Below are positions 10,157-29,898 of a DNA stretch of 33,258 bases, one piece after another. A program made the position numbers and the translations under genes. Positions within the stretch are counted from its first letter, which is position 1. Each line of letters begins with the position of its first letter. The notes below the pieces were generated by a model. That model was not told where the DNA came from and searched no databases. It saw nothing but the letters and a program-made list of their open reading frames with translations. Source of the stretch: a virus. The stretch spans positions 1 to 33,258 of IMG/VR virus record IMGVR_UViG_3300017971_000583; one strand, given 5' to 3'.

Positions 10157-10482
10157 TGAACGCATCCCTAACATACGTTGTGGAGGTCTTATACCAAGAC
10201 ATAGACAAGGTGGCGACTGTTATGGAGAACATCGATATTTCTCCGGATGTTGAAGGCATACAACCACCAATTTCGATATGCGAGGACATAACAGCAATCA
10301 ACGGCCGTTTTATCGAGCGTACTGTAAAATACCTTTACAGTGCGGAATTCGAAGACGCGTATCCAACGGTAGACCTCAAGGAAGCGGCCCTAAAGGGCGT
10401 TGGTAAAAACATCATCGCGAATAAGCTCCCGGCAAGGGTGGACGTAATCGCGGCGCAATACGAGTTGAATGATTGCCCATGA
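10156..10482 (+). CDS. Hypothetical protein
   Basis: A 108-residue acidic protein starting at an ATG that shares its A with the previous TAA (TAATG); GAGGTAG upstream can serve as SD. It has mixed alpha/beta character (LTYVVEVLYQDIDKVATVME; FIERTVKYLYSAEFEDAYP; GVGKNIIANKLPARVDVIAA) and no membrane segment or zinc motif. It overlaps the next large gene by ATGA. A virion-assembly role is possible from context only. Confidence 0.7.
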   Translation: MNASLTYVVEVLYQDIDKVATVMENIDISPDVEGIQPPISICEDITAINGRFIERTVKYLYSAEFEDAYPTVDLKEAALKGVGKNIIANKLPARVDVIAAQYELNDCP

Positions 10483-12987: not shown

Positions 12988-14046
12988 ATGGTAGATTTTG
13001 CGTGCTCACCGGCTCTTTTGGCAACAAGCCGGTTTTATCCATACGACATGATACACCGCGGCGAATACCCAATAGATCGGGTTTATCGCCCCGGGTATTG
13101 TGAGGCACTGGTCGATTTGCCTCATGGTGCGTGTCCTGGGTGGAACTACCGCCCTTGGGCACCACCACCCCCAAGAGGGCAGAGTGGGAACATTCCATAT
13201 CGCCATCATCCAGACTATGCTAAGTATGTGTGCCCTCCAACTCCGCGTGATATGGTGACGCCCAAAGATGTCCCGCCTGGGAGGTCTTATGGCGGGCAAG
13301 CTGTTGGAGTGGTCGTCCCGGGTGGTGATCCGTTTGGGTTGTCACCAGTGCAAACCACCATGCCAGGTAGCGATCCGTTTGGGTTGTCACCAGTGCAAAA
13401 TGCTACCCCGGGGCGGGATCCGTCTGGTGGTGCTCCTCCCGGCAAAGTGTACCCAGGCAGTGACCCCTTCGGCGGTGCCCCCTTCGGTGGTACTCCGCCC
13501 AGCCATGTTTACCCAGGGAGCGATCCTTGGGGCGGTACTCCCTACGGTGGTGCTCCGCCCAGCAACGTTTACCCTGGCAGTGATCCATCTGCACAAGCGA
13601 ACGGAGACACCCCTACTTTGCTTGGCACGCTTGGTTGTGGTGTGCGAAAAAAGTGCAATCCGGCATATTCTCCAAGGTACCGCAGTTTGCGCAACACTCT
13701 TCGAAGACAGTACCACGATTGGGCATATTCGCGAGCGATGGCGCGCCTCACGAGCACTCAAGCTCATTGTGCGCATCCTGTGATATCTGGGATGTTTGCT
13801 GGGCGTGCACCAAATGGGCAGCTTTCACAGACATTCGAAGAGGGGTTGGGCGAGACACAGCACCTAACTAGGCTTCCGACCTTACCCGCGATGACAATAG
13901 ATCGGGATGTTTATTTCCCTAAAGACGTCGATCAAGCAGCCCAAAAAACAAATGAAAAAGACGAAGGGTTGTCTGGTTTGGCAATTGTTGCGTTGGTTGT
14001 TGCTGGTGGGGTTGGCCTGTATGCTGCCTCGAAAGCTTTTAAGTAG
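12988..14046 (+). CDS. Pro/Gly-rich virion protein with C-terminal membrane anchor
   Basis: A 352-residue protein with SD GAGGTG before the ATG. No signal peptide. The N-terminal 100 residues are aromatic and Pro-rich (YRPGYCEALVDLPHGACPGW). Residues about 105-195 hold some seven repeats of the PGSDPFGG type with linkers GGAPPSNVY. A Cys/Arg-rich part follows (GCGVRKKCNP, RYRSLRNTLRRQYHDW), then acidic and polar residues. The last 24 residues are one hydrophobic helix (LAIVALVVAGGVGLYAASK) ending AFK. The pattern, with a long soluble N-terminus and a single C-terminal helix with positive end, recurs in several genes downstream and suggests a protein of an internal virion membrane. Confidence 0.8.
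   Translation: MVDFACSPALLATSRFYPYDMIHRGEYPIDRVYRPGYCEALVDLPHGACPGWNYRPWAPPPPRGQSGNIPYRHHPDYAKYVCPPTPRDMVTPKDVPPGRSYGGQAVGVVVPGGDPFGLSPVQTTMPGSDPFGLSPVQNATPGRDPSGGAPPGKVYPGSDPFGGAPFGGTPPSHVYPGSDPWGGTPYGGAPPSNVYPGSDPSAQANGDTPTLLGTLGCGVRKKCNPAYSPRYRSLRNTLRRQYHDWAYSRAMARLTSTQAHCAHPVISGMFAGRAPNGQLSQTFEEGLGETQHLTRLPTLPAMTIDRDVYFPKDVDQAAQKTNEKDEGLSGLAIVALVVAGGVGLYAASKAFK
13315..13590 (+). repeat. Degenerate PGSDPFGG-coding repeats
   Basis: About seven imperfect in-frame copies of a unit encoding PG(S/G/R)DP(F/W/S)G followed by a Gly/Pro linker. Spacing is 36 to 60 bases and copies are diverged, so this array is older than the arrays at 12621 and 25540. Confidence 0.85.
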
Positions 14047-14052
14047 TACAAT

Positions 14053-15591
14053 ATGCACATGGACATCATCAGACGCCCACACCCAAGGGGGGAACCAGGG
14101 ACACGGATCAGCCTGTCAGAAGTAGCCAAAAGAGCAGCGGAAGGGCGGCTTGATCCGAGAGTGAGGGCTTGGGCTATCGAAAAGCTTGTTCAAGGTGGAA
14201 ACCCAAGAGCACCAAAAGACAAAGCAGCCATCCTCCTAGATGCGCTCAGACGCGAACGCATCTATGTGCCGGACCCTGTCGATGCAGAATTTATACCTTC
14301 TGCGGCGTGCACCTTGGAAGGGTGCGAAGGGTTGAAATTTCTTGGTGAAGACTGCGATGGGTTGCTTGTGAGCTACCTTGCGGCTTGTGGTGCGATTGGC
14401 ATTGAGGGCGCGGTCGTGGGTCACGGGTATTCAGAAGATGGGCAGCTGTCTCATGTGCTCGCCGCGGTGTTTGATGGGGGTGTCTGGACGCTATGTGATC
14501 CAAGCACAGCCCAACCTTTCGGACAGGTAGACCGCCCGGTTCGGGAGCGCTGGATTGCTGTACCTGGCGGCCAAGTTATGTGTGATAACGTAAACGGCAA
14601 GCCTTGTGACTTGCACACCATGGGAAGCGGGCTAACGACTATGAGAGAACACGGCGATTTCGTGGGAGTAGGGCGTCCGTCCGGATTGATTGGGCGTTCT
14701 TCGTCGGGATTGATTGGGCGTCCTTCGTCGGGATTGATTGGTGCCTACGCCGGTTTCGATCAAGTAGATCAAGTGCGCATGGCTGAGGACGCCAGAAATG
14801 CCGCCAACAAGCTGGATGCTATGGTTGTGGAGGCTGTTCGAGTGCACGAAGAGCTTAGATTTCTGCGTGAAGACTTGGAGAACCGATCGATTGTGGATCA
14901 AGCCCGCGATCCTGGTCCTGGTGTCTGGACACAAGCAGACGAAGATTACTTTCGGACGTTGATCTCCGCATCGAGGCTTGCTGTAGAGTACGGCCACGAG
15001 GGGGCGTCAGGTTTGCGGCCTATCGCTTGGGACACTGAGCTGAACACAGTGGTCATTGGTGGTGAGCAGAGTAGAGACGTGCGTCTTGGAATCGACAACC
15101 AAGGCACTGTTTACGTTGTGCAGCCCGGTCAAATCCCATCGGCGATGTCTCCTCCGGCTGGTCTGGTGGGGGCTCCGCTGGCTGGAATCTGGGCAGTCGC
15201 CGTGATGGTTGTCGCGTTGTCCGGACTTGGAGGCATGTACTTTTGGTGCGACAAGGAAAAAGCAGCTCAAAAGGTGATACTTCAGACAGACGAAGTTGTG
15301 CGCGCACGTGAGCTTGAACGCGAACACGGGCCAGATGAGGGAGCACGCCGGGCAGCCGCAGAGCGCGAGCAACGGATAAGGGTAGCACAGGCTAGAGCAC
15401 AAGCAGCAGCAGCCACGCGACCTTCGACCATATCGGAGGTCACTGATCTGATCAAGATCGGCACGATGGCGATTGTGGGCACCGCAGCAATAGGGTTGGG
15501 TGTCTACGGCGGGGTGGAGCTCTATAGGTACCTGAAAGGTACGCCGCGCCGTCGGGGTGGTGCTTTCGCACAGGTACCCAAGCGAGGCTGA
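14053..15591 (+). CDS. Membrane protein with a transglutaminase-like cysteine-protease domain
   Basis: A 512-residue protein starting 6 bases after the previous stop without a clear SD (ATG 14059 is an alternative). Residues 65-165 fit the transglutaminase/bacterial cysteine-peptidase fold: Cys101 in EDCDGLLVSYLAA, His134 in SHVLAAVFDGGVW and Asp149 in CDPS form the usual Cys-His-Asp triad. Three GLIGR/SS repeats (about 211-230) follow, then a helical region and two hydrophobic segments: about 375-400 (GIWAVAVMVVALSGLGGMYF) and 475-495 (IGTMAIVGTAAIGLGVYGG), separated by a charged Arg/Glu/Ala coiled coil. The C-terminus is basic. It could process virion or cell-wall proteins or be a non-enzymatic structural fold. 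Confidence 0.82.
   Translation: MHMDIIRRPHPRGEPGTRISLSEVAKRAAEGRLDPRVRAWAIEKLVQGGNPRAPKDKAAILLDALRRERIYVPDPVDAEFIPSAACTLEGCEGLKFLGEDCDGLLVSYLAACGAIGIEGAVVGHGYSEDGQLSHVLAAVFDGGVWTLCDPSTAQPFGQVDRPVRERWIAVPGGQVMCDNVNGKPCDLHTMGSGLTTMREHGDFVGVGRPSGLIGRSSSGLIGRPSSGLIGAYAGFDQVDQVRMAEDARNAANKLDAMVVEAVRVHEELRFLREDLENRSIVDQARDPGPGVWTQADEDYFRTLISASRLAVEYGHEGASGLRPIAWDTELNTVVIGGEQSRDVRLGIDNQGTVYVVQPGQIPSAMSPPAGLVGAPLAGIWAVAVMVVALSGLGGMYFWCDKEKAAQKVILQTDEVVRARELEREHGPDEGARRAAAEREQRIRVAQARAQAAAATRPSTISEVTDLIKIGTMAIVGTAAIGLGVYGGVELYRYLKGTPRRRGGAFAQVPKRG
14683..14745 (+). repeat. Tandem 24-bp units (GLIGRxSS)
   Basis: Units at 14683-14706 and 14707-14730 differ by one base, followed by a partial third copy from 14731. 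They form a short Gly/Ser linker between the transglutaminase-like domain and the helical part. Confidence 0.93.
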
Positions 15592-15594
15592 GCC

Positions 15595-16443
15595 ATGTCC
15601 TACAAGGACGTTTTTATATTTTGGAACCACGGGCCGATTCCCAATGATGCGCGCCCGATGTTCAGACGGCCAACCGCGTTTCTGAACATGGGGAGTCCCC
15701 CCGGAAGACACCCAGACTTTCGGGGTTCTGTCCTTGCACTTGGTCATAGACCAATCCGTGAGGCCATACGGACCAAGCTTCCTGGTGTCCAACCCCTACG
15801 CATAGGCCTTCTTGGTTTTTCTGCGTCTTGCTCTGGTGTCCGTACGTTTTTATCTTCCGCAGATGGGGGTTATGTGGACACGGTGATTTGCATAGACGGT
15901 ATTCATTGCCAGTCTGTTTCGTATCCTGCGGTCCGAGGGGGATATCTTGGGCCGTATGTGGCTTTTGGTAAACTTGCCGCTTATGGTGTGCCACCATTTT
16001 CGAATGTGGTCGCGGGTAACAGGTTACTTGCAATCACCAATTCCCAGGCAGACGGCCCGCCTGGGCAAGACCCAACAAGCGTGACCACACAAGAGATAAC
16101 AGAGGGCATTCTTGCGGGGTACCCATACATTTCGAACACTCTGCCCGAAGTGCTCTATCACGACCCGTCCAGACACCCTTGGACCAATCCAGCTGGACGG
16201 CAAAGGTGGCCGGACGGCAACGTCACTCAGTGGGGGCGCCACACATACGAAGATCCCCCCATCGAATGGGCCGTGAATGTTGGAGGCTTTTACGCGCTTT
16301 CCTATCGAAAGGTAGATCCTACCTCGATAGGCGATCACCGCTATCAAGCCGCTGTTGTTTTGCCGGCAGTTGTGGGAGCGCTTGCGGCTAACCGTTGGTC
16401 TATTATTCCCCCCGAGGGGGGTGTTTGCATGGTGGGCGCATGA
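15595..16443 (+). CDS. Alpha/beta-hydrolase-like protein
   Basis: A 282-residue protein with GAGG seven bases before the ATG. It opens with a strand and an oxyanion-like turn (VFIFWNHG). Residues 69-78 form the nucleophile elbow RIGLLGFSAS, with Ser76 in GxSxS, followed by a strand and VICIDGIH (Asp101). A candidate catalytic His is in GRHTYEDP near residue 213. No signal peptide; the end is hydrophobic but without a clear anchor. The fold includes esterases, lipases and cutinases, so a lipid, capsule or envelope substrate is possible; substrate unknown. Its stop overlaps the ATG of a putative muramidase, which suggests a joint role in envelope attack. Confidence 0.75.
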   Translation: MSYKDVFIFWNHGPIPNDARPMFRRPTAFLNMGSPPGRHPDFRGSVLALGHRPIREAIRTKLPGVQPLRIGLLGFSASCSGVRTFLSSADGGYVDTVICIDGIHCQSVSYPAVRGGYLGPYVAFGKLAAYGVPPFSNVVAGNRLLAITNSQADGPPGQDPTSVTTQEITEGILAGYPYISNTLPEVLYHDPSRHPWTNPAGRQRWPDGNVTQWGRHTYEDPPIEWAVNVGGFYALSYRKVDPTSIGDHRYQAAVVLPAVVGALAANRWSIIPPEGGVCMVGA

Positions 16444-17297
16444 CAGTTCGACGGTGTCTAGGAGATGGGGGAGCAGTTGTCCCGAGGGGTTGGCTGGGTG
16501 GTGATGGCCCGGACGCTCCGCTTTCTTGGGGGGATGCTTACCCGGGGTCTGGGCCGGATCCGGGAGAAGCCGAACGACAATCAAGAAATCTGGCTGATGT
16601 GCCTGGGTGCCCAGATCAGGCGTGTTTGGATATTTGGGCGCGGCTAGTGCTTGAGGCGGCTTGGAAAGCGCTTGGGTACAACCCAAGTGAAACCGTGATC
16701 CAATCTTCGCAAGCAATCTCACGTATGCTTGCGAACTATGGATGGCCCGGGTTTCCTCGTGCAGTGAGGGGTTCTCGCGATATGAGCAAATGGTGGGGGC
16801 ATCACAACTGGGGCGCGGTGATTTGTGAAACGTGTGTTGAGACCAACACGTGTTTTGCGCCTGCGTTTGTTGATATGATCGAAGTACGTGAAGGAGGATC
16901 CGTTCGCGAGATTTCTGCGTGTTTCGAGCATGCAAACAACAATGATGCGGGAGCAAAAAGATTTATTGAAGTGTTGCTAGGTAGTGCGCCTGCTGCAAAC
17001 TACGCAATGCTTGAAGACGGCGATGCATCTTTGATTGCACGAAGTATTTTCAAGACCACCACCGATCGGCAAGCTGCCATCGATGCTGAGCTCATCACGC
17101 GCCATGCGTACGCGATTGCTCAGAATCAAAACCGCGCGTGTCTTGTGCGCACCAAAGATCCTATTCTGCTTGGCCATGTTCAAACAGAATGGACCAGAGA
17201 TCTGCCAGAGCTCCCCCAACCGTGTTGGATACTTGGTGCGTTTGCTGGTGCTGCGCTACTTGGAGGCATCCTATGGGGCGTAAATCGCACGGTTTGA
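16440..17297 (+). CDS. Putative peptidoglycan hydrolase (glucosaminidase/muramidase-like) with C-terminal anchor
   Basis: A 285-residue protein; ATG 16440 overlaps the previous stop (ATGA). Residues 60-230 resemble lysozyme-like glucosaminidases: a helix with IQSSQAISRML where catalytic domains carry Q.aleTGWG, then HHNWGAVICETC at 121-132 (the common NNWGAI turn), FAPAFVD, a helical stretch and a DASLIARSIF end like the 'aGdp.aiA.am' block. The expected catalytic Glu could not be placed with confidence. Residues about 262-281 are one hydrophobic helix (ILGAFAGAALLGGILWG) ending NRTV. A membrane-anchored enzyme for entry or lysis is plausible. The assignment rests on pattern memory. Confidence 0.7.
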   Translation: MTVRRCLGDGGAVVPRGWLGGDGPDAPLSWGDAYPGSGPDPGEAERQSRNLADVPGCPDQACLDIWARLVLEAAWKALGYNPSETVIQSSQAISRMLANYGWPGFPRAVRGSRDMSKWWGHHNWGAVICETCVETNTCFAPAFVDMIEVREGGSVREISACFEHANNNDAGAKRFIEVLLGSAPAANYAMLEDGDASLIARSIFKTTTDRQAAIDAELITRHAYAIAQNQNRACLVRTKDPILLGHVQTEWTRDLPELPQPCWILGAFAGAALLGGILWGVNRTV

Positions 17298-17764
17298 TCC
17301 TCCAAGATGAATCTGGGCACTTCTTTTTGACACGTGGTGATCACGTCAAATTTGATCTTGAAGATGGTCGCCTTGTAGATATTCCAAACAACTGGATGAT
17401 GTATCAGGACGTTCTTGGTGGCGTGCTACCGGTGTGCACAGTTATGATCGCACCGTATGCACTACGTAATGGGTTTGTCCACATAGAAGATCCCGCATTT
17501 GGGTCTATAGTAAACGCTTATTTTGGTCATGATGTACGTATCAAACTTGGTAAAGTAAAGCTGCCACAAGGCGATTGGTCTGAACTAGGACGTGTTGCAC
17601 GAATTTACTATGCTCGCAGCGGTGAGTATTGCGGCAAATATCATCATGATTTCAAGTTAGAAGCGCCTCCTGTGCGCCTGATGACAACACAAAAAAGCAC
17701 GAGCTACATGGTTGTACTCCCTCGTGGTTGTGTCGTGGATAGCCACGGTTTTGTTTGGCCGTAG
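17273..17764 (+). CDS. Hypothetical beta-rich protein
   Basis: A 163-residue protein. The frame is open from 17138, but ATG 17273 has a good SD (GGAGG at 17262-17266) and begins a typical sequence (MGRKSHGLILQDESGHFF). The remainder is mostly short strands (HVKFDLEDGRLVDIP, VRIKLGKVKLPQGDW, YMVVLPRGCVV), suggesting a beta sandwich or barrel. It overlaps the membrane anchor of the preceding gene by 25 bases. A minor virion protein is the most likely role by position; no family recognised. Confidence 0.75.
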   Translation: MGRKSHGLILQDESGHFFLTRGDHVKFDLEDGRLVDIPNNWMMYQDVLGGVLPVCTVMIAPYALRNGFVHIEDPAFGSIVNAYFGHDVRIKLGKVKLPQGDWSELGRVARIYYARSGEYCGKYHHDFKLEAPPVRLMTTQKSTSYMVVLPRGCVVDSHGFVWP

Positions 17765-17792
17765 CCCCCCAATATACGGATAAAATTTGATG

Positions 17793-17920
17793 CAGCTTGA
17801 GTTAGCCCCAAGCTGATGATAGCCTTGTAGTGTCAATTGGTTTAGGTTTTTGCATGTTTGGGCGCTCTTCAACACACCCCACGAGCCATCTCCCATTGGT
17901 GTTGGGGAGCGCCCCACAAC
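17793..17920. repeat. Two inverted repeats in the gap before the basic protein gene
   Basis: CAGCTTG (17793-17799) and CAAGCTG (17809-17815) form a 7-bp stem. GTTGGGG...CCCCACAAC (17901-17920) forms a second stem with one bulge. No T run follows either, so they are not standard terminators. The 171-bp gap shows no other gene and no tRNA. Confidence 0.6.
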
Positions 17921-17935
17921 TCGGTTGGCCTAGCG

Positions 17936-19612
17936 ATGCCCCAGACATCTAAAGCGAAACAGGTCAGCAAAGCACAAGGGTTGCTCGCGAAGAAACAAGC
18001 TTCTTATGCAAGCGCAGTTTCTCGTAAAGCAAAAACTGCTGGGCGCAAAACCTCCTTAGAGCGCGCCAAAAAAACGCAGCCCAGAAAGCACACCAAACGG
18101 GCAACGCGCGGGCGACTTTCCGCAAGTCGCACAAATCCGAGCAAACGGAAGACATCGCGGGCAACGCAACCGAGGAAAACCTGTCCGGCTCGATGTGTTC
18201 CGATAGAGTTGAAATATAAGGAGGCAAATCCCATGGCAGTAGCAGGAGCGGCCGCACAAGTTGAAGCGGAGAAGAAAAGACTTGCTGGACGAAAACGCCG
18301 CAAGACCAGACGCCGGACGACCAAGAAGACCGGCACCACGACCGCTCGAAAGCGGACTACTCGGCGGCGGCGCCGGCGCACCACCCCGCTTTACAAAATG
18401 CAACAGAGTGTTGTGCGTGCGCGTCGACGCAAGCCAACTCGCAAGCAGAAGCGTACTGTTCCCACTGGGAACTACGCCGGACGCAAGGCGGTCATTTCGG
18501 TTCGACGCAGGTATTCTCTGAGTAACCCCACCGTCATGTACAAGCACATGGCTGCGGGAGCCATCGGGCTGGCCGTAGGTTACGGGTTGGCTGAGGTGGT
18601 GGATCGTGCGGTAGCTACGCGTGCGCCCAAGAATGCCAACAAGGCACTGTACGGCCCCCAAGCCAGTGCAGCCATCGCCAAGAAAGCTGACGGGACCAGA
18701 ATGGCGGTTTCCGGTTTGGGCACCGCGGTCTTGGCTCTCGGCTCTTACATGGCGAAGAAAAAGAGCCCGGTGGCGGCTTGGTCTCTGGGTGGTGCCGCGG
18801 CTGGGTTCGGGGTCAAATTCCTCGACCAGTTGCTGTTCGATGTGATTGCGCCAGCGGTTTGGAAGGTCAAGAGCCCCACTGAGGACAGCTATGCAAACCG
18901 CTTGTTCCCCGACAAGCAGGATGCACCCGCAGCCTCGGCGCTGCCGCCAGAGGGTACCGTGGCTACTTTTGGCACGGCCGGACCACAGATTCCTCGATAC
19001 GGACTGCCTGGTGCCGTGCATGCTCCGCAAGCACAACAACAAGCACTTTATGTACAGGGACACCACCACCCTTTTCTGGGAACTCCGGCAGCAACCAATA
19101 ATGGCGCGGTTGCCGGAGCTCAGGGCGCCGTAGGTGGTTGTGGCTGCGGCCAGAACTATGGCCAGGCTGCTGGGTATGACCTTGCAAAGACTTTCCCGCT
19201 TTGCACAGCAGGTTGCCAAGGCACGTGCAAATGTGGTGCGGCTGTCCCCGGAGTAACTCCTCCGGTAACATGCTCATCATGTGCAATCGAGATCCCAAAA
19301 TTGGTGTCTCCCCAGCTGCCCACGCCTGGGTACCATCTTGTACCGACACCGCAACAAATGCAGGTGCCTGTAGTCGCAAATCAAGGCTTGCACGTTCCGA
19401 CATCTTGGCCCAGTGATGCACTCCCACAAGGAGGTGCTCCTGCAAATGCAGTGTTAGCTCGCCCTGGTGTCGGTGAGCCCCAAGTCGAGGCCCCCCAAGC
19501 CGCGGCTCCTCAAGCCGAGGCTCCTCAAGCCGAGGCTCCTCAAACAGCACAACCCGCCCCGATCAACGACATGTTGGCGGTGGCCCAACGACGGAGACAC
19601 GCCAGACGGTAA
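17936..19612 (+). CDS. Histone-like basic protein with hydrophobic core and Cys-rich part, probable virion protein
   Basis: A 558-residue protein from ATG 17936, which lacks an SD. An in-frame ATG at 18233 has a very strong one (TAAGGAGG) and would give 459 residues. Residues 1-95 are Lys/Arg/Ser/Thr-rich (SRKAKTAGRKTSLERAKK) like histone H1 tails, and 115-200 are again highly basic (RKRRKTRRRTTKKTG). Three hydrophobic or Gly-rich segments follow (AAGAIGLAVGYGLAEVV; VSGLGTAVLALGSYM; AAWSLGGAAAGFGVKF), then a Cys-rich stretch (GGCGCGQN, CTAGCQGTCKCG, CSSC) and an Ala/Pro/Gln repeat tail (EAPQAEAPQ). It may link the genome to the inner face of a membrane or capsid. Confidence 0.78.
   Translation: MPQTSKAKQVSKAQGLLAKKQASYASAVSRKAKTAGRKTSLERAKKTQPRKHTKRATRGRLSASRTNPSKRKTSRATQPRKTCPARCVPIELKYKEANPMAVAGAAAQVEAEKKRLAGRKRRKTRRRTTKKTGTTTARKRTTRRRRRRTTPLYKMQQSVVRARRRKPTRKQKRTVPTGNYAGRKAVISVRRRYSLSNPTVMYKHMAAGAIGLAVGYGLAEVVDRAVATRAPKNANKALYGPQASAAIAKKADGTRMAVSGLGTAVLALGSYMAKKKSPVAAWSLGGAAAGFGVKFLDQLLFDVIAPAVWKVKSPTEDSYANRLFPDKQDAPAASALPPEGTVATFGTAGPQIPRYGLPGAVHAPQAQQQALYVQGHHHPFLGTPAATNNGAVAGAQGAVGGCGCGQNYGQAAGYDLAKTFPLCTAGCQGTCKCGAAVPGVTPPVTCSSCAIEIPKLVSPQLPTPGYHLVPTPQQMQVPVVANQGLHVPTSWPSDALPQGGAPANAVLARPGVGEPQVEAPQAAAPQAEAPQAEAPQTAQPAPINDMLAVAQRRRHARR
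18217..18235 (+). promoter_or_regulatory. Strong internal Shine-Dalgarno with in-frame ATG
   Basis: TAAGGAGG ends 8 bases before ATG 18233, in frame within the basic-protein gene. It may be the main start, or a second one giving a form without the first histone-like block. Confidence 0.6.
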
Positions 19613-19622
19613 GCTGATCGAT

Positions 19623-19678
19623 TTCGGAGGCTTTCAACGTAGCTAGCAAATTCGGCGGCTTTCAACGTATCTAGCAAA
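19623..19678 (+). repeat. 28-bp tandem duplication upstream of the capsid candidate
   Basis: The unit beginning TTCGG and ending CTAGCAAA occurs at 19623-19650 and 19651-19678 with two mismatches. It is non-coding and ends 15 bases before the ATG at 19694, close to the SD (AGGAGAT). It may be a protein-binding or RNA element controlling the next gene. Confidence 0.9.
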
Positions 19679-19693
19679 ATTACAGGAGATTGA

Positions 19694-20983: not shown

Positions 20984-21043
20984 TCTCAGTTCGTCTTGCA
21001 CTGACTCATCCGAGAATGACCGCTAACTAGAACCCAGGTTTCC

Positions 21044-21088
21044 CCGTGCGGTCCCCATCTTTCGCAGGGGAGACCTACCGCACGGAGG
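21044..21088 (+). promoter_or_regulatory. Stem-loop overlapping the SD of the next gene
   Basis: CCGTGCGGT (21044-21052) pairs with ACCGCACGG (21077-21085), with an inner CCCC/GGGG helix. The right arm shares two G with the SD GGAGG (21084-21088) of the gene at 21096. There is no T run. It could tune translation, or act as a processing or stability element between two coat-protein genes. Confidence 0.65.
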
Positions 21089-21095
21089 ATACAAA

Positions 21096-21707: not shown

Positions 21708-21714
21708 GGCCCAA

Positions 21715-22491: not shown

Positions 22492-22524
22492 TGCATAGGT
22501 TGCCAGAATGCAGGAGGTGTAAAG

Positions 22525-23301
22525 GTGGCTAGTGAACTACAGGTACTTGATTCCTATGTCATCGTAGAGGACTTGGGGATCGAGGTAACAGAAAATGATC
22601 CAGTATATCGGCAAATGCTGCAAAGCCTCTATGTCGATTTGTCACGCCCAGAAGCGGAGTGCTTGATCTATTTTGCCAAGGTGCCTAAGATTGCTACCGG
22701 GCAAAGCAAACTAGGCATGGGGCGAGTCATTGCCAAAGCCAAGTCTTTGATAGCCTTGGCGCAAGAAGCTATGCATCGAATTTATGCTGGCCGTTTGGCG
22801 GTTGCTACAGATGGTAACTGGAAGTGCATGGATGCTTGGGCATTGGCTATGCTGCAACCAGGTATTAGTGGCACTGACCCCACCAACGATGGTGCAGTTG
22901 TTGCTATGATGCCTTTGGACAGTCCAAGCTTGAAGTATTTGCTCGATAATTCGATGCTCCTGCAGTGGGCTGTTCGAGAAGAAGCATTGCGGCAGAACGA
23001 TAAAGAATTCGATTCTGCTACGTTTGGTGTCCAAGCGTTTGATTCGATATTTGTCAACGCGCCTGTTCCTCAGGAGTGCGCTCAGTATGGGTGGGTGATT
23101 GTATCCCCCACGGGTATGCCGAAAGATTGCCCCCCGGGTGAGGTGTGGCTTCCTGAGGACCAAGCTTGTGGTGCTTCTGGGTTGGCTCTGACCTCCACGG
23201 GATTGGCTGAGAAAACAGATTACTCCACCGCGGCATGGGTCGTCGGAGGGCTTGCGGTGGCTGGTTTGGCGTGGTGGGCATTTGGCAAAAAACGGAGGTA
23301 A
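22525..23301 (+). CDS. Virion membrane protein with C-terminal anchor
   Basis: A 258-residue protein starting with GTG at 22525, supported by AGGAGGT eight bases upstream. The first 190 residues are globular and mainly helical (LIALAQEAMHRIYAGRL, WKCMDAWALAMLQPG, LLDNSMLLQWAVREEAL). Then comes a two-Cys module (DCPPGEVWLPEDQACG, about 207-222) that recurs in the next two proteins. Residues 234-254 form one hydrophobic helix (AAWVVGGLAVAGLAWWAFG), and the protein ends KKRR. It lacks a signal peptide, so insertion is C-terminal with the basic tail probably inside. Role in the virion inferred from context. Confidence 0.8.
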   Translation: MASELQVLDSYVIVEDLGIEVTENDPVYRQMLQSLYVDLSRPEAECLIYFAKVPKIATGQSKLGMGRVIAKAKSLIALAQEAMHRIYAGRLAVATDGNWKCMDAWALAMLQPGISGTDPTNDGAVVAMMPLDSPSLKYLLDNSMLLQWAVREEALRQNDKEFDSATFGVQAFDSIFVNAPVPQECAQYGWVIVSPTGMPKDCPPGEVWLPEDQACGASGLALTSTGLAEKTDYSTAAWVVGGLAVAGLAWWAFGKKRR

Positions 23302-23302
23302 C

Positions 23303-24688
23303 ATGAAAACCTACATCCATCCATGCCCAAGTGGGGGTGTGCAGCGCTACACATACGTGGTGCAGCCTGGAGATACCCCCGAGCTTATCTCTCACAAGCT
23401 CACAGGACGCGACGACCTATGGCCTGGACTTGTAGGTGCTAACCAGCATCATAAGCCCATTGTAGACCATCCTAAAGCCCGCTACGCCACGTTTGAGAAC
23501 CTATCCCCGGGAGAGCATCTCTTCGTACCTGCCAAATGGGGGCAGCTTGGCGAACCTGCTTACGACCAGCTGGCTGGTGTGCTGGGTGCTACCCTGGGAG
23601 CCATGGCGCCTGGGTTGCAAACCCAGATTCAGAGCCAGCTTCCCGGTTGGCAAATGCCTAATGGACCCAATGGGGTGCCTTACTCTCCCCAAAACGTGGG
23701 CAACGTGATCGTGGGGTGGCTGCCGTACCTGTCGAGGATGCCCAATCCTCCCCCCACGCAAACATCATGGCCAACGGATTTGACCCAATGGGATTTTGGG
23801 ACGCTTGCCAACGCTTACCGGTCCGCATCGGATTTGCTTCGCCAAGCACAGGTTCCACAGGCAAACACAACGGTCTTTCGCAGTATCCCGTGGGATGCGG
23901 TGCCCTGGCAGTCGTTTCCATGGCACGTGATCAACGGTGCTGTACCTCCCCAAATGCTTCCGCAGGTGTGGTCTTTCTTCGTCAACTCGATGAACATGCC
24001 GAACGTAATGCGGCCCATGACGTGGTCCGCAAAGAACCACACGCCTAATTTCTTTGAGACCGACTGGACGAGCGGCAACGTGTCAAATGTGCCCTGGGAA
24101 GCAATCGCTTGGGAAACCATAGACCCGGATTTGTTCACGGATACCAGGGTGCACGCGTGCTTCGTGCAAGATGAAGCCGCAGCAAGAGCGCGTCTTGCCC
24201 AAATGATGGATCACAAAGAGTGCTTCGTTGGGCAAGGCCCCGCCAAGTTTGCGGCATATCTCTGCAAACAACCCGATGGGACCTATCGAGACTTGGAGGC
24301 ATGCAGCGCCGGGCCCGTACCTCCTACCGGCGCCTGCCTGCCTCCCATGGAGTACAACCCCACCACCGGCGCCTGTGAGGCACCGGTACCGCAACAGGGT
24401 GTTTGCCGGGAAGGTGAATTTTGGGATACTGCCACCGGTCGGTGCATTCGGTATCAATGCCCTCCCGGACAATACCTGGACCCGGCCACCGGGCAGTGTG
24501 TTTCGTACACGCTGCCCCCCGCTGTCGTGGGGCCTACCCAACTCCCCCCAGGAACCACGCCCACTCCGGGAGTGGTGCCGACGGGCGTCGAGGAAGCAAA
24601 ACCTGACAATACCGGCCTGTATGTGGCACTGGGCGCCGGTGCTTTGGTGCTTGTTGGGCTGTTTGCTGCGGCCAAAATGAAGAAATGA
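23303..24688 (+). CDS. Membrane-anchored LysM protein
   Basis: A 461-residue protein with SD GGAGG before ATG 23303. Residues 15-78 form a LysM domain (YTYVVQPGDTPELISHKLTG ... SPGEHLFVPAKW), which binds N-acetylglucosamine in peptidoglycan. The middle is rich in Trp, Pro and Asn with repeated PWDAVPWQSFPWHVI / VPWEAIAWETID blocks. Then come Cys modules (CLPPMEYNPTTGAC, CREGEFWDTATGRC, CPPGQYLDPATGQC) and a Pro/Thr linker. The last 26 residues form a hydrophobic helix ending AAKMKK. It overlaps the next gene by ATGA. It probably displays a cell-wall-binding head on a membrane-anchored stalk. Confidence 0.85.
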   Translation: MKTYIHPCPSGGVQRYTYVVQPGDTPELISHKLTGRDDLWPGLVGANQHHKPIVDHPKARYATFENLSPGEHLFVPAKWGQLGEPAYDQLAGVLGATLGAMAPGLQTQIQSQLPGWQMPNGPNGVPYSPQNVGNVIVGWLPYLSRMPNPPPTQTSWPTDLTQWDFGTLANAYRSASDLLRQAQVPQANTTVFRSIPWDAVPWQSFPWHVINGAVPPQMLPQVWSFFVNSMNMPNVMRPMTWSAKNHTPNFFETDWTSGNVSNVPWEAIAWETIDPDLFTDTRVHACFVQDEAAARARLAQMMDHKECFVGQGPAKFAAYLCKQPDGTYRDLEACSAGPVPPTGACLPPMEYNPTTGACEAPVPQQGVCREGEFWDTATGRCIRYQCPPGQYLDPATGQCVSYTLPPAVVGPTQLPPGTTPTPGVVPTGVEEAKPDNTGLYVALGAGALVLVGLFAAAKMKK

Positions 24689-26712
24689 CCTACAACCAAG
24701 CTTGCCCTGGGCCTCTATCCGATAAAGTGCAACCGTATTGGGTACAGGTTACCCGATACGTAGCCCGTGATGGTCTGCCTAACCGGGATGAGTTGGCGTT
24801 TATGTCGTGGTTCTTCGACGAATTCGAAGATTCCAAGCTGCAAGAGCTCATTTCAGCCAACGCGGACCACGTGGGGGGCTTTTATCTGGATGGGGGTCGG
24901 TGTCGATTTCGAAATTTCGAAGGATTTATTCGAATTCCTGGTGATTGGCCCGAACCTAAGTCTGGCGACATCTGGTTGCATGTAGTGCCGTACTACCCCA
25001 ACCCAGAGCCTTGCAACCCGGGGCTTCCTGTGGAGGCCAAATCTCAATACGTGTACGTGGTTGGTGCTGATGACACTCCTTGGGGGGTCGCTCGCAAGTT
25101 TGGTGAGCCTGCAAAGAGCTGGATCAAGCTGCGCGGGGCAAATCTCGAGGATAATTTCGAAACGCAGTCAAAAGACGTATCAGTGTGCACCTGGAAACAA
25201 TGGGGTCCGGGAAAGCGCCTGAAAATTCCCTTGGCGTGGAATGACCCACCCCAAGGGAGCAAGGTGTGGCAAAATATCGAGGTGGTATCCTCTGGCTCGA
25301 TTGCCGGACCACCGACAAGAAGAGGTGAAATGATGCACACGCACATCGTTGGAAATGAAACACCGCGAATGATCGCGGAAAAGTATGGTATTGATCTTGA
25401 GGACCTATTTGCGGTCAACCCGCACTTGAGGGTGGTCCAGGATGATCGCACCGGATGGAAGACGTGGCACCCGAAAGACTTTCGGGTCGGAATGGGCGTG
25501 TTTATCCCAATCACACGCCGGGTTCAGCCCTCTATTGGTGGTCCATGGAGAGCGCAGGATCCGGATTACGTTCCGGGCCCCTGGAGAGCGCAGGATCCGG
25601 ATTACGTTCCGGGCCCCTGGAGAGCGCAGGATCCGGATTATGTCCCGAGTACTATTGGGTATTCGCAACAACCTGTCCTTCGAGGGCCCAATGGGCTGCA
25701 TGATCCCACAGCATGGGGACCGCAACAACCTGTCCTTCGAGGGCCCAATGGGCTGCACTCCTTAGGAGGCTATGATCCATTTCCAGAAAATGGACAAATC
25801 GGGGAGTGCTCAGACAACGCGTGTCAGTGCCGATGCGGGGGGTCGTGTGCTGTGACGCCCCAGCCCCCCGGATGGGGAGGCCATGTTGGGGCTGCAGGGG
25901 ATAAGTGCGATTGTGGCAGCGTGACGCCTCGAGAAGATGTGCGCTATATCGTCGGGGACGAGTACCCGGGCGCGGTTGCAGTGAAATTTGGTCGCGATTC
26001 AAGCGATCATGGTCAAATCCGTGCGGCCAACTTCGATTGGCCTATGGGGTGTTGGCGAAACAACCAAAACGTTTGTGTTCTCAAGGGCTGGAAGCCAGGC
26101 ATCAAAATCAAGCTTCCGCTCGATTGGTTTGGGCCTGGGGAGGAATTTTGGAGCCCCGCGGTCTACAATCAGCTGTACTTCCGAGATGCGGCCGGCCAGT
26201 GGACGATTCCCTACGTTCGAGGCAGTCTTCCTGTTACTGGGGGGCAGTGCCCACCGGGAACAGTCCCACATCCCACGATTCAAGGCTTGTGCGTGCCTGG
26301 CACCACCGTTCCCGGTGGAGGTACGCCGGGAGGTGGGGGCACGGGGCCAATATCCGGGCAGTGCCCAGTAGATGCGCCCACAGGATCACAATGGGTGCCA
26401 GGAGTGGGGTGCGTCACTCCGTCTGGTATTCCTGCCGTTGGGGGGCGATGTCCCCCTGGATTGACGCTTGCGGGCAATGTGTGCATGCTGCCCGGAACAG
26501 TTCCCGGAACAGTTCCCGGGGGAGTGCCCGGTGTCACCCCAGTTGGGGTTCGAGAAACGAAAGAAGAAGGTTGGCCCATGTGGGCTTGGGCTCTTCTTGG
26601 TGCGGGGGCTGTAGGTGTGGGCGCGTTGGCCTACCAGAAACTGGGCAAACCCACCAGGAAACGCCGCAAGCCGCGCAAAACGACAAGAAAATCGAAAAAA
26701 CCCCGCAGATAG
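24685..26712 (+). CDS. Membrane-anchored protein with three LysM-like domains
   Basis: A 675-residue protein coupled to the previous gene. LysM-like domains lie near residues 115-180 (YVYVVGADDTPWGVARKFG), 217-280 (HTHIVGNETPRMIAEKYG) and 417-485 (RYIVGDEYPGAVAVKFG). Between the second and third are three GPWRAQDPDYVP repeats, two QQPVLRGPNGLH copies and a Cys cluster (CSDNACQCRCGGSC). The C-terminal part holds CPPGT/CPVDAP/CPPGL two-Cys modules, a Gly/Pro/Val linker, one hydrophobic helix (ALLGAGAVGVGALAYQ) and a long Lys/Arg tail (KRRKPRKTTRKSKKPRR) that could bind DNA on the inner side. Several LysM copies suggest avid peptidoglycan binding. ATG 25333 has an SD-like GAGGTG and is in frame. 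Confidence 0.85.
   Translation: MTYNQACPGPLSDKVQPYWVQVTRYVARDGLPNRDELAFMSWFFDEFEDSKLQELISANADHVGGFYLDGGRCRFRNFEGFIRIPGDWPEPKSGDIWLHVVPYYPNPEPCNPGLPVEAKSQYVYVVGADDTPWGVARKFGEPAKSWIKLRGANLEDNFETQSKDVSVCTWKQWGPGKRLKIPLAWNDPPQGSKVWQNIEVVSSGSIAGPPTRRGEMMHTHIVGNETPRMIAEKYGIDLEDLFAVNPHLRVVQDDRTGWKTWHPKDFRVGMGVFIPITRRVQPSIGGPWRAQDPDYVPGPWRAQDPDYVPGPWRAQDPDYVPSTIGYSQQPVLRGPNGLHDPTAWGPQQPVLRGPNGLHSLGGYDPFPENGQIGECSDNACQCRCGGSCAVTPQPPGWGGHVGAAGDKCDCGSVTPREDVRYIVGDEYPGAVAVKFGRDSSDHGQIRAANFDWPMGCWRNNQNVCVLKGWKPGIKIKLPLDWFGPGEEFWSPAVYNQLYFRDAAGQWTIPYVRGSLPVTGGQCPPGTVPHPTIQGLCVPGTTVPGGGTPGGGGTGPISGQCPVDAPTGSQWVPGVGCVTPSGIPAVGGRCPPGLTLAGNVCMLPGTVPGTVPGGVPGVTPVGVRETKEEGWPMWAWALLGAGAVGVGALAYQKLGKPTRKRRKPRKTTRKSKKPRR
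25540..25647 (+). repeat. Three tandem 36-bp coding units
   Basis: Units at 25540-25575, 25576-25611 and 25612-25647, nearly identical, encode GPWRAQDPDYVP three times between LysM-like domains two and three. Confidence 0.96.
25664..25757 (+). repeat. 37-bp direct repeat
   Basis: An identical 37-bp segment beginning CGCAACAACCTGTCC occurs at 25664-25700 and 25721-25757. It encodes QQPVLRGPNGLH twice. The exact identity points to a recent duplication. Confidence 0.96.
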
Positions 26713-26725
26713 GTTACCCTATCTG
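26706..26725 (+). promoter_or_regulatory. Hairpin between stop and next start
   Basis: CAGATAGG (26706-26713), loop TTAC, CCTATCTG (26718-26725): a perfect 8-bp stem that contains the stop codon of the LysM gene and ends one base before the next ATG. No SD is visible there, so translation of the next gene may depend on ribosomes opening this hairpin. Confidence 0.6.
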
Positions 26726-26726
26726 A

Positions 26727-27179
26727 ATGTTTCGCGCTGTCCGAATAAATACCTCAGATCACGCCCTAAAGAAAGCCTGGCAAGGCTTCATGCGACGCCT
26801 CGAGACCACGCTAGAGGTGATTCGGGTAACGAATTCTACCAATCTGGTGATCCCATCGGGATCGATAGTCAAGCTCGTTGCTGGGGGCCCTCGTCGATGC
26901 GAACCTGCACTCTGCAATGATGTGAATTGGTGTGGGGTTTTGACCGAAGAGTGCCCCCCCGGTCTAACCGCGTTGTGCCAGCATACAGGACTTTCGTGTA
27001 TGCGATTTGAAGAGAGTACCCCTCCCGCGGAGGGGTCGCCCGTGTACATCTCTCAAACTCCCGGGTTGGCAACGTGTGCACTACTCCACTCTGGATCCAG
27101 AGTTGGAATTTTGGCTGATGTGACAAAATTCAAGCTGCGTGGGCAATGCGCAAGCGTGCTGCTAACGCGTGGTGTATAG
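26727..27179 (+). CDS. Beta-rich Cys-containing structural protein, possible decoration protein
   Basis: A 150-residue protein without SD, starting right after a hairpin. After an N-terminal helix (ALKKAWQGFMRRLE) the rest is strand-like: TNLVIPSGSIVKLV, NWCGVLTEECPPG, SPVYISQTPG, SRVGILADVTKF. The layout 'vpsGsvV.l.....~v~~a...~~~~~GvLt....~G..~.v...G...~~' resembles small beta-barrel phage decoration proteins (DUF2190-like); this similarity is by eye. Eight cysteines may form disulphides or bind metal. No membrane span. Likely a virion component. Confidence 0.72.
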   Translation: MFRAVRINTSDHALKKAWQGFMRRLETTLEVIRVTNSTNLVIPSGSIVKLVAGGPRRCEPALCNDVNWCGVLTEECPPGLTALCQHTGLSCMRFEESTPPAEGSPVYISQTPGLATCALLHSGSRVGILADVTKFKLRGQCASVLLTRGV

Positions 27180-27210
27180 GTTGTGGTAGGCTAACGTCTT
27201 GGAGGTAAAA

Positions 27211-27405
27211 ATGGCTGGGAAAGTTATCAAATGCGAGTTGAGTTTGTGCTGTTCAAACAAGGGAGGATGCCCGCGTGTGCGGGTGCATACCGACGAAAGT
27301 GTCTCCATCATTGATGACGATGGGAAAGAAATAGCACTCACCAAAGAGCAAACCCTGCTCATGCTGAAAGACTTGCGATACTTGGGGTTTGGTGACCCAA
27401 AGTGA
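27211..27405 (+). CDS. Small Cys-containing hypothetical protein
   Basis: A 64-residue protein. ATG 27211 is chosen because GGAGGTAAAA directly precedes it; a TTG at 27199 is part of the same open frame. It has CELSLCCSNKGGCP near the N-terminus, a possible metal or disulphide knot, then a two-stranded part (RVRVHTDESVSIIDDDGKEI) and a helix with KEQTLLMLKDLRYLG. Its stop overlaps the GTG start of the next gene. No family recognised. Confidence 0.7.
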   Translation: MAGKVIKCELSLCCSNKGGCPRVRVHTDESVSIIDDDGKEIALTKEQTLLMLKDLRYLGFGDPK

Positions 27406-27737
27406 CTCCAACAATGGAGCTGTGGCTTCTTTTGCTCAGCTGTGTTGGGCTCACCGTAACCATCACCGGAAGCCATATTGCAACACCTTTCCGAAATCTG
27501 TTTCCGCCACCAATCGGATCGCGTGGTGTGCAAGAAGGTGAGCATCGCCCGTCGTTGCTCACGTGCCCCTTGTGCACTGGGTTTTGGGTGGGGTTAGCGC
27601 ATGGGGTCTACTCGGACGCAAAGCTCGGCGCAGACGATCCAATCGGATTTCGATTGGGGACTGTGATCATGATCGCGTTTGCCGGATCGATCCTTTCATA
27701 CGTCGCTGGTGTTTGGCTACACGAACACGATCGCTGA
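27402..27737 (+). CDS. Two-span membrane protein with CPLCTGFW motif
   Basis: A 111-residue protein starting at GTG 27402 (overlapping the previous stop, GTGA) or at ATG 27414. Hydrophobic segments: about residues 5-24 (MELWLLLLSCVGLTVTITGS) and 85-105 (TVIMIAFAGSILSYVAGVW). Between them lies LLTCPLCTGFWVGLA; CPxCxGFWxG is a motif I associate with DUF1360-type small membrane proteins found in phages and Firmicutes. The role is unknown; holin-like action or membrane structure are possibilities. Ends HEHDR. Confidence 0.7.
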   Translation: MTPTMELWLLLLSCVGLTVTITGSHIATPFRNLFPPPIGSRGVQEGEHRPSLLTCPLCTGFWVGLAHGVYSDAKLGADDPIGFRLGTVIMIAFAGSILSYVAGVWLHEHDR

Positions 27738-27740
27738 GTG

Positions 27741-27766
27741 ATTTGTGCGCAAAAGCTTGGTATACT
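27741..27766 (+). promoter_or_regulatory. Extended -10 promoter candidate
   Basis: TGGTATACT at 27758-27766 fits the extended -10 form (TGN TATAAT-like) in the 48-bp gap before the gene at 27786, whose SD GAGGAG follows. No good -35 box at the right distance is visible. Confidence 0.4.
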
Positions 27767-27785
27767 CCTTTGAGGAGCACAAAGC

Positions 27786-28697
27786 ATGCGGCGCAAAAAA
27801 CCTCATCGATACAGCGGGCTTCTGGGGCGCACGCCACTCAATCCCTTGGGATCAACACCTACAGCACCAACCTTCCTCAACGTTAGTGGTTACAGCACTA
27901 CCAACGGCGGGTCCAGAGGTTCTCGATCGGGGCAACCCATGCCCAGTTTGACCCCGTTGACCCCGTTGACCCCGTTGACCCCGTTGACCCCAATACTTCC
28001 CTCGCATCCTGCAACTCCGATGACTCCAATGCTTCCATCAAATGGCTTCCAGCAGCAACCCAGTCTTCCAGGCCGACCACCGCCGCCCACTGGGCAAGTC
28101 CCCAGTGCCCAACCGGGGGAAACTCCGCAAGCTGACCCGCTGGCAGATGTTCGATGCTACGAACACCAACAGCAGGAAACGTTTTTTGCTAACGTGCGCA
28201 CCACAATCGAACACGAAATCAAACGTGCTGCTGGGGTATTTGAGCTTACCTCATCCGACAGAGAACATGTTGGGATGCTCGTTGAAGCCTTCAAGATAGG
28301 GCAGGTTGTGCCTGGTTACTTCAGAGCAGGGCCAGGGCAACCATGCTCAATGGATTGGTCGCAGCTTGCGTGTTTTGCTCGATGGTACAGTCGTCTGGAT
28401 GGGGTAGGACGGGATGAGGTGTTGTTCGAACTCACCCAGGGCAACCCATGGCCTTGGACGCAACCTACCGAGTATCCCTACCCACCTCCACCTGATCCGT
28501 GCCCTGAAACACCAACGCCCCAACAAGTAGGTTGGTGCTGCCCCCCGCAGGTGTATGGTGATCCGCAGTACACCCAAGAGTTCCCCTGGATTCCAAAGGA
28601 AGACAAATCCAATTTGGTACCCTTTTTGGTGGGTGCTGGTGCTGTAACTGCGATCCTTGTTGGTGTAGCCATTCTTGCTTCTGGTTCTAAGAGGTAA
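27786..28697 (+). CDS. Membrane-anchored virion protein, paralogue of the 28927 gene
   Basis: A 303-residue protein with SD GAGGAG. The N-terminal 110 residues are basic, then Ser/Thr/Pro-rich, with a PLTPLTPLTP array. Residues 118-265 form a domain with PCSMDWSQLACFARWYSRL, GNPWPW and CCPPQVYGDPQY. The same pattern appears in the protein encoded at 28927 (PCSQSWNWPGWACFCNWYWWL, GNYHTW, CPGPVLNDPRY), so the two are divergent paralogues. The last 27 residues are one hydrophobic helix (LVPFLVGAGAVTAILVGVAI) ending SGSKR. No signal peptide. Probable virion membrane protein; family unknown. Confidence 0.8.
   Translation: MRRKKPHRYSGLLGRTPLNPLGSTPTAPTFLNVSGYSTTNGGSRGSRSGQPMPSLTPLTPLTPLTPLTPILPSHPATPMTPMLPSNGFQQQPSLPGRPPPPTGQVPSAQPGETPQADPLADVRCYEHQQQETFFANVRTTIEHEIKRAAGVFELTSSDREHVGMLVEAFKIGQVVPGYFRAGPGQPCSMDWSQLACFARWYSRLDGVGRDEVLFELTQGNPWPWTQPTEYPYPPPPDPCPETPTPQQVGWCCPPQVYGDPQYTQEFPWIPKEDKSNLVPFLVGAGAVTAILVGVAILASGSKR
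27948..27992 (+). repeat. Five tandem 9-bp units
   Basis: TTGACCCCG five times (the last unit ends in A), encoding LTP repeats. The unit is a multiple of three, so changes in copy number would alter linker length without breaking the frame. Confidence 0.96.
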
Positions 28698-28700
28698 AAC

Positions 28701-28925
28701 ATGTACACCACAATATGCCCAAACTGTGGACGCTGTGCTCAATGTGGACGTGCGCATTATGGGACAGTGGCGGGAAACGGCGTAGACGAGCAACAGCTTG
28801 CACAGCAATCCGCTGCAGCGCAACACTCTTCTGGGTCGCATCCAGCACTTTGGCTGATGGCCGCGGCAAGCCTAACAGGCGCAGTCATTGAGGTTTTACG
28901 GTATACATCGAAGAAGGGGAAGTGA
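28701..28925 (+). CDS. Zinc-ribbon protein with one membrane span
   Basis: A 74-residue protein with SD GAGGTAAAAC before the ATG. The N-terminus has CPNCGRCAQCG (Cys6, 9, 12, 15), a compact zinc knuckle; a polar Gln/Ala/Ser linker follows; residues about 47-65 are hydrophobic (PALWLMAAASLTGAVIEVL), and the end is basic (RYTSKKGK). It lies between the two paralogous membrane proteins and shares their C-terminal anchor plan, so it may assemble with them. No family recognised. Confidence 0.75.
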   Translation: MYTTICPNCGRCAQCGRAHYGTVAGNGVDEQQLAQQSAAAQHSSGSHPALWLMAAASLTGAVIEVLRYTSKKGK

Positions 28926-28926
28926 T

Positions 28927-29898
28927 ATGAACGGCATGATGCAAGCAGGGTTTGAAAATTGCGTTCGTCAGCTTGGCAGCCGCGGGCTATGCGAAAAAAT
29001 TATGCACATGTCGACCACGCAGTATTCCAACGGTCGGCAACAACCCCGCGTGCAGTGTATGGACACTTGGGGGCCTGGATCAGTAGCAATCGCAAAAAAC
29101 ATCGCCAGCAGGGAAGCCGCTCGTATGTGGGGGTGGATCCCTCCCTCCAAGGAAGAAATCTTCCAGGCTGCGGATCGTCTGGTTCAAATGATGAAACAAC
29201 ACGATTCGGGGGTGTACTCTTCGAAACCGTGTAGCCAATCGTGGAACTGGCCGGGGTGGGCTTGCTTTTGCAACTGGTATTGGTGGCTCACACCAGAATC
29301 CCGAGCAGAGCTCGACCGGGACATCTACGCGGGCAACTACCACACGTGGGCATACTGGGCGATGCACTTCCAAGAGCTATGTCCTGGTCCCGTGTTGAAC
29401 GACCCCAGGTATGCTGTGGTCCCCCATCCGGGTGAGGTAGCCCACAACACTTGGGCCCCCGAGTGGCGGCGTCAAACCGCGGCCGCCAAGGCCGGAGCTG
29501 CCCCACAGGGCGCCCAAGCGCAGGCAATCTATGATACAGCACCCCCAACATGGGCGCCCCAACCTTGGCCCCTCCTGAGCCTCGCAACGGGGGCTACCCC
29601 TTCCATCCCTGGGGTCCCTATGCAACCCTGTGAGCCCTTCCCACAGTGTGTGGACAACAATCTGCAACAAATGGGGTTACCTCAACCTTGCCGCCCGTAT
29701 CCTGGTTGTATGTGGAGCGCCGCCGAAACTCTGGCAAACGCCAGCCCTGCCATTCAAACCACATCGACGCCGAATCGATGGGGGAAGTATCAAGCTGTAG
29801 CTCAAAAAGAAGACACAGATAAAACCAAATCCATAGTGTGGCCACTCCTTATAGGAGCAGGCGCAGCAATAGGTGTGGTGTATCTGCTTGCAAAGTGA
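28927..29898 (+). CDS. Membrane-anchored virion protein, paralogue of the 27786 gene
   Basis: A 323-residue protein. ATG 28927 follows GAAGGGGAAGTGAT; the open frame begins at 28888 inside the preceding gene. The N-terminal 170 residues include ARMWGWIPPSKEEI, PCSQSWNWPGWACFCNWYWW, GNYHTWAYWAMHF and CPGPVLNDPRY, aligning with the domain of the 27786 protein. An Ala/Pro/Gln-rich part with CEPFPQC and CRPYPGC follows. The last 22 residues are a hydrophobic helix (IVWPLLIGAGAAIGVVYLLAK). A very Trp-rich core and paired cysteines suggest an extracellular or capsid-facing module. Family unknown. Confidence 0.8.
   Translation: MNGMMQAGFENCVRQLGSRGLCEKIMHMSTTQYSNGRQQPRVQCMDTWGPGSVAIAKNIASREAARMWGWIPPSKEEIFQAADRLVQMMKQHDSGVYSSKPCSQSWNWPGWACFCNWYWWLTPESRAELDRDIYAGNYHTWAYWAMHFQELCPGPVLNDPRYAVVPHPGEVAHNTWAPEWRRQTAAAKAGAAPQGAQAQAIYDTAPPTWAPQPWPLLSLATGATPSIPGVPMQPCEPFPQCVDNNLQQMGLPQPCRPYPGCMWSAAETLANASPAIQTTSTPNRWGKYQAVAQKEDTDKTKSIVWPLLIGAGAAIGVVYLLAK

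Follow-up and report, generated by a model that had tools for sequence, protein, structure and literature searches.

A gene block rich in C-terminally anchored membrane proteins points to a large lineage of tailless membrane phages

Tailless phages with an internal membrane are a known kind of virus and are considered to lie close to where many large eukaryotic DNA viruses originated. We analyzed the complete IMG/VR virus record IMGVR_UViG_3300017971_000583, which comprises 33,258 bases (the window), and its block from 10.5 to 33 kb very probably encodes the virion of such a phage, namely an inner lipid vesicle enclosed in a protein shell. The lineage was found in no searched collection except for two IMG/VR records, namely the window and a contig of 72,434 bp (IMGVR_UViG_3300009506_000017, L017; the relative). 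The described virus to which the window can be linked is Salisaeta icosahedral phage 1 (SSIP-1), an icosahedral membrane phage of uncertain class with a 43.8-kb circular double-stranded DNA (dsDNA) genome and a T=49 particle of ~100 nm (PMC6260650). Others have placed SSIP-1 among the two-coat-protein viruses (PMC4958249, PMC6356626), and gp40 has been predicted to be its packaging ATPase (PMC4124505).

The relative has a genome of ~72 kb, compared with 44 kb in SSIP-1, and thereby greatly exceeds the usual size of such phages. PRD1 (Tectiviridae) resembles the present phages in its inner-membrane lytic transglycosylase P7, which is similar to the SLT protein of the relative, and in its logic of spikes and membrane delivery; by contrast, PRD1 has only 15 kb, and its P3 double jelly roll, P9 ATPase, and protein-primed polymerase were not detected in the window or the relative. 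P23-77 and the Halopanivirales are also membrane phages, with two small coat proteins and an endolysin similar to r17700 of the relative (r-numbers denote genes of the relative), but their genomes are 17 kb, and neither VP16/VP17 nor their packaging ATPase was detected here. FLiP and the Odin group share the lack of a detectable FtsK/HerA ATPase but have small genomes, and FLiP is a single-stranded DNA virus. Double jelly-roll viruses without a packaging ATPase exist but are small, the surveyed prokaryotic ones having 7–18 kb (PMC5894146).

C-terminal anchors and the search for tail and packaging genes

A sequence-only reading of the window had proposed that the genes from 12,988 to 29,898 form a virion block of C-terminally anchored (C-anchored) membrane proteins. 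In agreement with it, the products of 12988, 16440, 22525, 23303, 24685, 27786, and 28927 (genes are named by their start positions) each have one C-terminal hydrophobic span and mostly a Lys/Arg end. Additional spans that it had assigned were found in 14053, 27402, and 28701, but the one claimed for 17936 is not clearly supported, because the hydrophobicity of this protein is weak, with a peak KD of 1.37. C-terminal spans occur in 11 of the 18 block proteins, compared with 1.4 expected when residues are shuffled within proteins, and in 1/22 proteins from the left part of the window. The same measure gave 0/24 for the virion region of lambda, 0/13 for P22, 0/15 for T7, and 0/22 for Mu (0/74 altogether; block versus tailed virion regions, Fisher p = 6e-10), as well as 10/24 for SSIP-1 and 4/9 for PM2. 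The virion part of the relative has 13 spans in 37 proteins (expectation 2.7), and the rest of its genome has 2 in 34.

The tails that follow the spans almost never contain Asp or Glu and carry 1–15 Lys/Arg residues, whereas the residues ahead of the spans are often acidic. One example is the tail of 24685, which has 25 residues, 15 of them Lys/Arg; basic, acid-free tails are present in the window and the relative alike. Two of the eleven proteins are weak cases: 27402 has two spans, and the homologue of 15595 has no C-terminal hydrophobic stretch, so 15595 is probably a soluble hydrolase. About nine of the eleven are true tail anchors by this assessment, and it is these virion-block proteins that suggest an internal membrane.

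Both records were searched by PHROG/Pfam hidden Markov model scans of open reading frames (ORFs) and by six-frame family searches, with positive results in control genomes. As the sequence-only reading had stated, no portal, terminase, tape-measure, or other tail gene is recognizable in the window, and none is recognizable in the whole relative. Large terminase (PHROG/Pfam scans; PF03237 and PF03354 in six frames), portal (PF04860), tape measure (PF10145), and the FtsK family (PF01580) were absent from both records, and so was the HK97 coat (PF05065) at the sequence level. HK97 coat, terminase, portal, and tape measure had been named in advance as contrary evidence. Matches to PHROG tail families were confined to the spike type. 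Walker-A candidates in six frames numbered none in the window; those confirmed in the relative belong to a RepA-like AAA_25 ATPase and a Mg-chelatase-type AAA protein, besides an SNF2 helicase. The packaging motor may be divergent, host-supplied, or one of the first two of these ATPases.

A very divergent tailed phage, with undetected terminase, portal, and tail genes and unusual membrane-anchored virion or lysis proteins, would account for the orphan status of most proteins, for the spike matches to "tail" families, and for a weak tape-measure match of 10473 (E 0.041). We consider it highly improbable, since the six families were absent where controls were positive, the virion regions of the four tailed phages have no C-terminal spans, the Walker-A proteins are absent from the window and of the above three types in the relative, and β-helix spikes are found on any virion type.

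The second genome, the coat candidates, and the link to SSIP-1

The relative was reached by a DNA pattern for the WxxLACFxxWY motif that is shared by the paralogs 27786 and 28927; the pattern retrieved ten contigs, one of which, L017, was a genuine relative. Homologues of 15 window genes lie in it in the same order after rotation, without rearrangement, and the left-hand genes of the window, except for 10473 and the small gene 10156, have no counterpart there. The two ends of the contig do not overlap, and the frames are shifted at the break, but both ends lie inside one LamG-like gene, which belongs to a tandem family, and the joined product aligns with the neighboring protein; therefore, the contig probably represents a circular or circularly permuted map that is nearly complete. 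The existence of this 72-kb second genome makes the finding a lineage, and a large one. Together with the C-anchors shared with SSIP-1 and the homology to gp34 (described below), it supports the large, undescribed lineage of tailless membrane phages that the sequence-only reading had suggested.

The relative adds a C-anchored SLT transglycosylase joined to a hydrolase-like domain (r3027), a C-anchored M15-type endolysin (r17700), and LysM proteins. Among reference proteins, the SLT of r3027 comes closest to the PRD1 P7 region, and r17700 to a P23-77 endolysin. The rest of the contig encodes the SNF2 helicase, a topoisomerase-like protein, the two AAA proteins, and RadC. The Mg-chelatase-type AAA domain occurs together with a GNAT domain in a protein of 1233 amino acids (aa; L023 8046–11747). 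ORFs of the relative were picked greedily, so that small genes may be missed, and the six-frame searches compensate for this only in the families tested.

No further member was detected when alignments of window and relative proteins (A4, consisting of 19694 and r6404, and A7) were scanned against viral and genome contigs, and the gp34/14053 alignment found nothing in these contigs other than SSIP-1 and the 72-kb relative. No relative was found with the spike N-terminus as a probe, in IMG/VR pattern scans with single window proteins, or in the genome contig collection. By tblastn, virion proteins had no match in 50,697 phage records, nor did five of them in 72,556 plasmid records.

The three globular proteins that the sequence-only reading had picked out between 19,694 and 22,491 are present and are conserved in the relative. 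They are the best-conserved soluble proteins shared by the two records (42–50% identity), with the 429-aa protein foremost. Their conservation, solubility, and position in the block indicate that 19694, 21096, and 21715 are most likely the shell proteins. The third candidate is strand-rich by crude propensity, and Chou–Fasman propensities were not discriminating. Two tandem 28-bp repeats (TTCGGaGGCTTTCAACGTAgCTAGCAAA) at 19,623–19,678, immediately 5' of the 429-aa candidate, are a possible regulatory site.

The candidates also bear on the possibility of a pleomorphic or plasmavirus-like particle, that is, a spiked membrane vesicle without an icosahedral shell. Such a particle would be in keeping with the predominance of membrane-anchored proteins, with the missing motor, and with the transglutaminase-like domain, which is also found in a protein of a Geoglobus pleomorphic virus. 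However, the best-conserved proteins are soluble, adjacent, and similar to a shell module, and 72 kb would be very large among the known membrane-only viruses. Furthermore, the particle of SSIP-1, a phage with this C-anchor signature and with gp34, is icosahedral (PMC6260650). We regard a vesicle without a shell as very unlikely, marginally less so than a divergent tailed phage.

The link to SSIP-1 is the transglutaminase-like domain with a Cys-His-Asp triad that is common to 14053 and gp34, which is annotated as a structural protein. The similarity was found by blastp (5e-5 among 415 SSIP-1 ORFs) and by hhalign (89.5% with a two-sequence profile), and the homologue of 14053 in the relative independently matches gp34 (E 1e-3). 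The catalytic triad is conserved in the three-way alignment, and gp34, too, has a C-terminal membrane helix. The order of the SSIP-1 block is also comparable: the coiled-coil protein gp33, which like 10473 precedes the transglutaminase-like gene, is followed by gp34, membrane proteins, the hydrophobic gp44, the small structural proteins gp45–gp47, and terminal spikes. Like the relative, SSIP-1 has a C-anchored SLT-like protein (gp54). The gp34-type protein, the similar order, and the shared enrichment in C-anchors would fit genuine membership in the SSIP-1 group, with its two single-barrel coat proteins, which is a narrower version of the tailless membrane-phage reading rather than an alternative to it. 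We consider such membership unlikely, since the other virion proteins have no sequence or profile similarity: comparisons of the coat candidates with gp45–gp47 and a comparison for the gp40 ATPase (blastp, Smith–Waterman, hhalign) gave no support, and no SSIP-1 counterparts were found for the LysM and WxxLACFxxWY proteins. As no further virion-protein pair is supported, the relationship is a resemblance to SSIP-1 plus one homologue.

Three other candidate links were dropped. The similarity of 19694 to SSIP-1 gp1 was equaled in 0/1000 shuffles, but this was one of 576 pairs, and the profile comparison was unsupportive. That of 17936 to gp44 was not significant, and MT839222, which matches gp34, resembles a bacterial transglutaminase locus.

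Several results weigh against a tailless membrane virion. The only link of the window to a studied virus is one homologous virion protein, gp34, and transglutaminase-like domains are widespread. An FtsK/HerA-type packaging ATPase, which is present in most dsDNA jelly-roll phages and which the sequence-only reading had expected, was found in neither record. For the coat candidates, profile searches of the PDB and profile comparisons with the coats of SSIP-1, P23-77, PM2, and PRD1 gave no match, and single-sequence AlphaFold models were unusable, with a predicted local distance difference test score of 31 for the 429-aa protein and 38 for the 203-aa protein. The ~72-kb size, the lack of a recognizable motor, and coat proteins without matches indicate a new variant, probably at the family level. 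The fuller proposal of tailless membrane phages that form a lineage at the rank of family or order, with ~70-kb genomes, sequence-unrelated coats, and packaging of neither the FtsK/HerA nor the terminase type is tentative, and we give it somewhat less than an even chance.

Genes of the window and the proposed working of the virion

Both ends of the window interrupt genes and no end repeats were found; therefore, the window is a fragment. All its predicted genes are on the plus strand, and it contains no tRNAs or Rfam matches. The left third encodes ThyX, an N4/N6 methyltransferase, a sigma-70 region 4 protein, a weakly matched tyrosine recombinase, and a LexA-type DNA-binding domain. The ThyX-type thymidylate synthase (491–1252) has a Cys-rich insert (CxxC..CxxC; weak match to a DnaJ zinc domain). 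The ThyX, methyltransferase, and topoisomerase matches point to no consistent host. In the right two thirds (Table 1), family matches are limited to LysM, a weak DUF1360, and the pectate-lyase-like spike.

Table 1. Virion-block genes of the window and their homologues in the relative or other support.
Feature	Position	Strand	Homologue or support
P/Q/M-rich, partly coiled-coil protein, 819 aa, possible scaffold/internal protein	10473..12932	+	r64346, E 1e-7 to 2e-9
C-anchored protein, 352 aa, PGSDPFG repeats, tail ASKAFK	12988..14046	+	C-terminal span KD 2.11
Transglutaminase-like protein (Cys101-His134-Asp149), membrane spans, basic tail	14053..15591	+	r67675, 50% identity
Soluble alpha/beta-hydrolase-like protein, GFSAS motif, possible esterase/lipase	15595..16443	+	r69078, 34% identity
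C-anchored protein, 285 aa	16440..17297	+	C-terminal span KD 1.82
Conserved soluble protein, 162 aa	17276..17764	+	r4422, 36% identity
Very basic N-terminus, weakly hydrophobic Gly-rich middle; candidate DNA-condensing core protein	17936..19612	+	r4847, 35% identity
Coat candidate 1, 429 aa	19694..20983	+	r6404, 47-50% identity, E 1e-122 to 1e-131
Coat candidate 2, 203 aa	21096..21707	+	r7724, 48-49% identity
Coat candidate 3, 258 aa	21715..22491	+	r8424, 42% identity
C-anchored protein, 258 aa, tail KKRR	22525..23301	+	span
LysM-type C-anchored protein, 461 aa	23303..24688	+	r10885, 28% identity; LysM common to 24685
LysM-repeat C-anchored protein	24685..26712	+	LysM E 4.5e-4; r12046, r22374
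Small protein, candidate spike base	26727..27179	+	r13353, r12833; N-terminal SD..L...W..L motif
DUF1360-like membrane protein, two spans	27402..27737	+	Pfam E 7e-4; r17266, 37% identity
C-anchored protein with WxxLACFxxWY domain	27786..28697	+	r18433, E 4e-15; paralog of 28927
Small C-anchored protein, 74 aa	28701..28925	+	span KD 1.64, tail RYTSKKGK
C-anchored protein with WxxWACFxxWY domain	28927..29898	+	paralog of 27786
Spike/fiber candidate	29908..31221	+	position; N-terminal motif resembles 31263
Spike, pectate-lyase-like beta-helix	31263..32543	+	PF12708 E 9e-14
Second beta-helix spike, interrupted by window end	32797..33258	+	60% identity to 31263 N-terminus

The GFSAS alpha/beta-hydrolase-like domain of 15595, which has a weak PDB match (6a6o, E 0.1), also occurs in the relative, at L022 3027–4397, where it belongs to r3027, and at L025 9078–9851. 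Recent in-frame tandem repeats are present in 10473–12932 (MQPAPMPPAP), 12988–14046 (PGSDPFG), and 24685–26712 (GPWRAQDPDYVP). The N-terminal SD..L...W..L motif of the candidate spike base is also carried by spike-like proteins of the relative at L022 12833–17164 and L023 5600–7519, which suggests a common virion docking peptide.

Our best reading is that the phage works like PRD1 or SSIP-1, membership in Varidnaviria not being established. Tail-anchored proteins need no signal peptide; their C-terminal helix inserts post-translationally, and the N-terminal domain remains cytoplasmic. The approximately nine proteins would enter the host membrane in this way through their single helices. Following the example of PRD1, the phage membrane would derive from the host membrane, and the shell would enclose it in the cytoplasm. 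In this arrangement, the soluble N-terminal domains would lie between the membrane and the coat, with the short tails directed toward the DNA, a topology that fits because the tails are basic and acid-free. The basic protein 17936 and the tail of 24685 may assist condensation of the genome, which, going by the relative, would be circular or circularly permuted and ~72 kb long. The β-helix spikes would attach through their short N-terminal motifs. At infection, the LysM proteins and, in the relative, the C-anchored SLT protein and M15 peptidase on the membrane would attach to the cell wall and breach it, and extrusion of the membrane would deliver the DNA across it, as in PRD1.

SSIP-1, previously an orphan, thus gains its first relative, by way of one virion protein. 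Tailless membrane phages would be able to reach ~72 kb, in a second, larger lineage that comprises two or more genomes, which raises the question of how a genome of that size is packaged when no motor can be recognized. Clustered C-anchored proteins with basic, acid-free tails may serve as a genomic signature for detecting more such phages.

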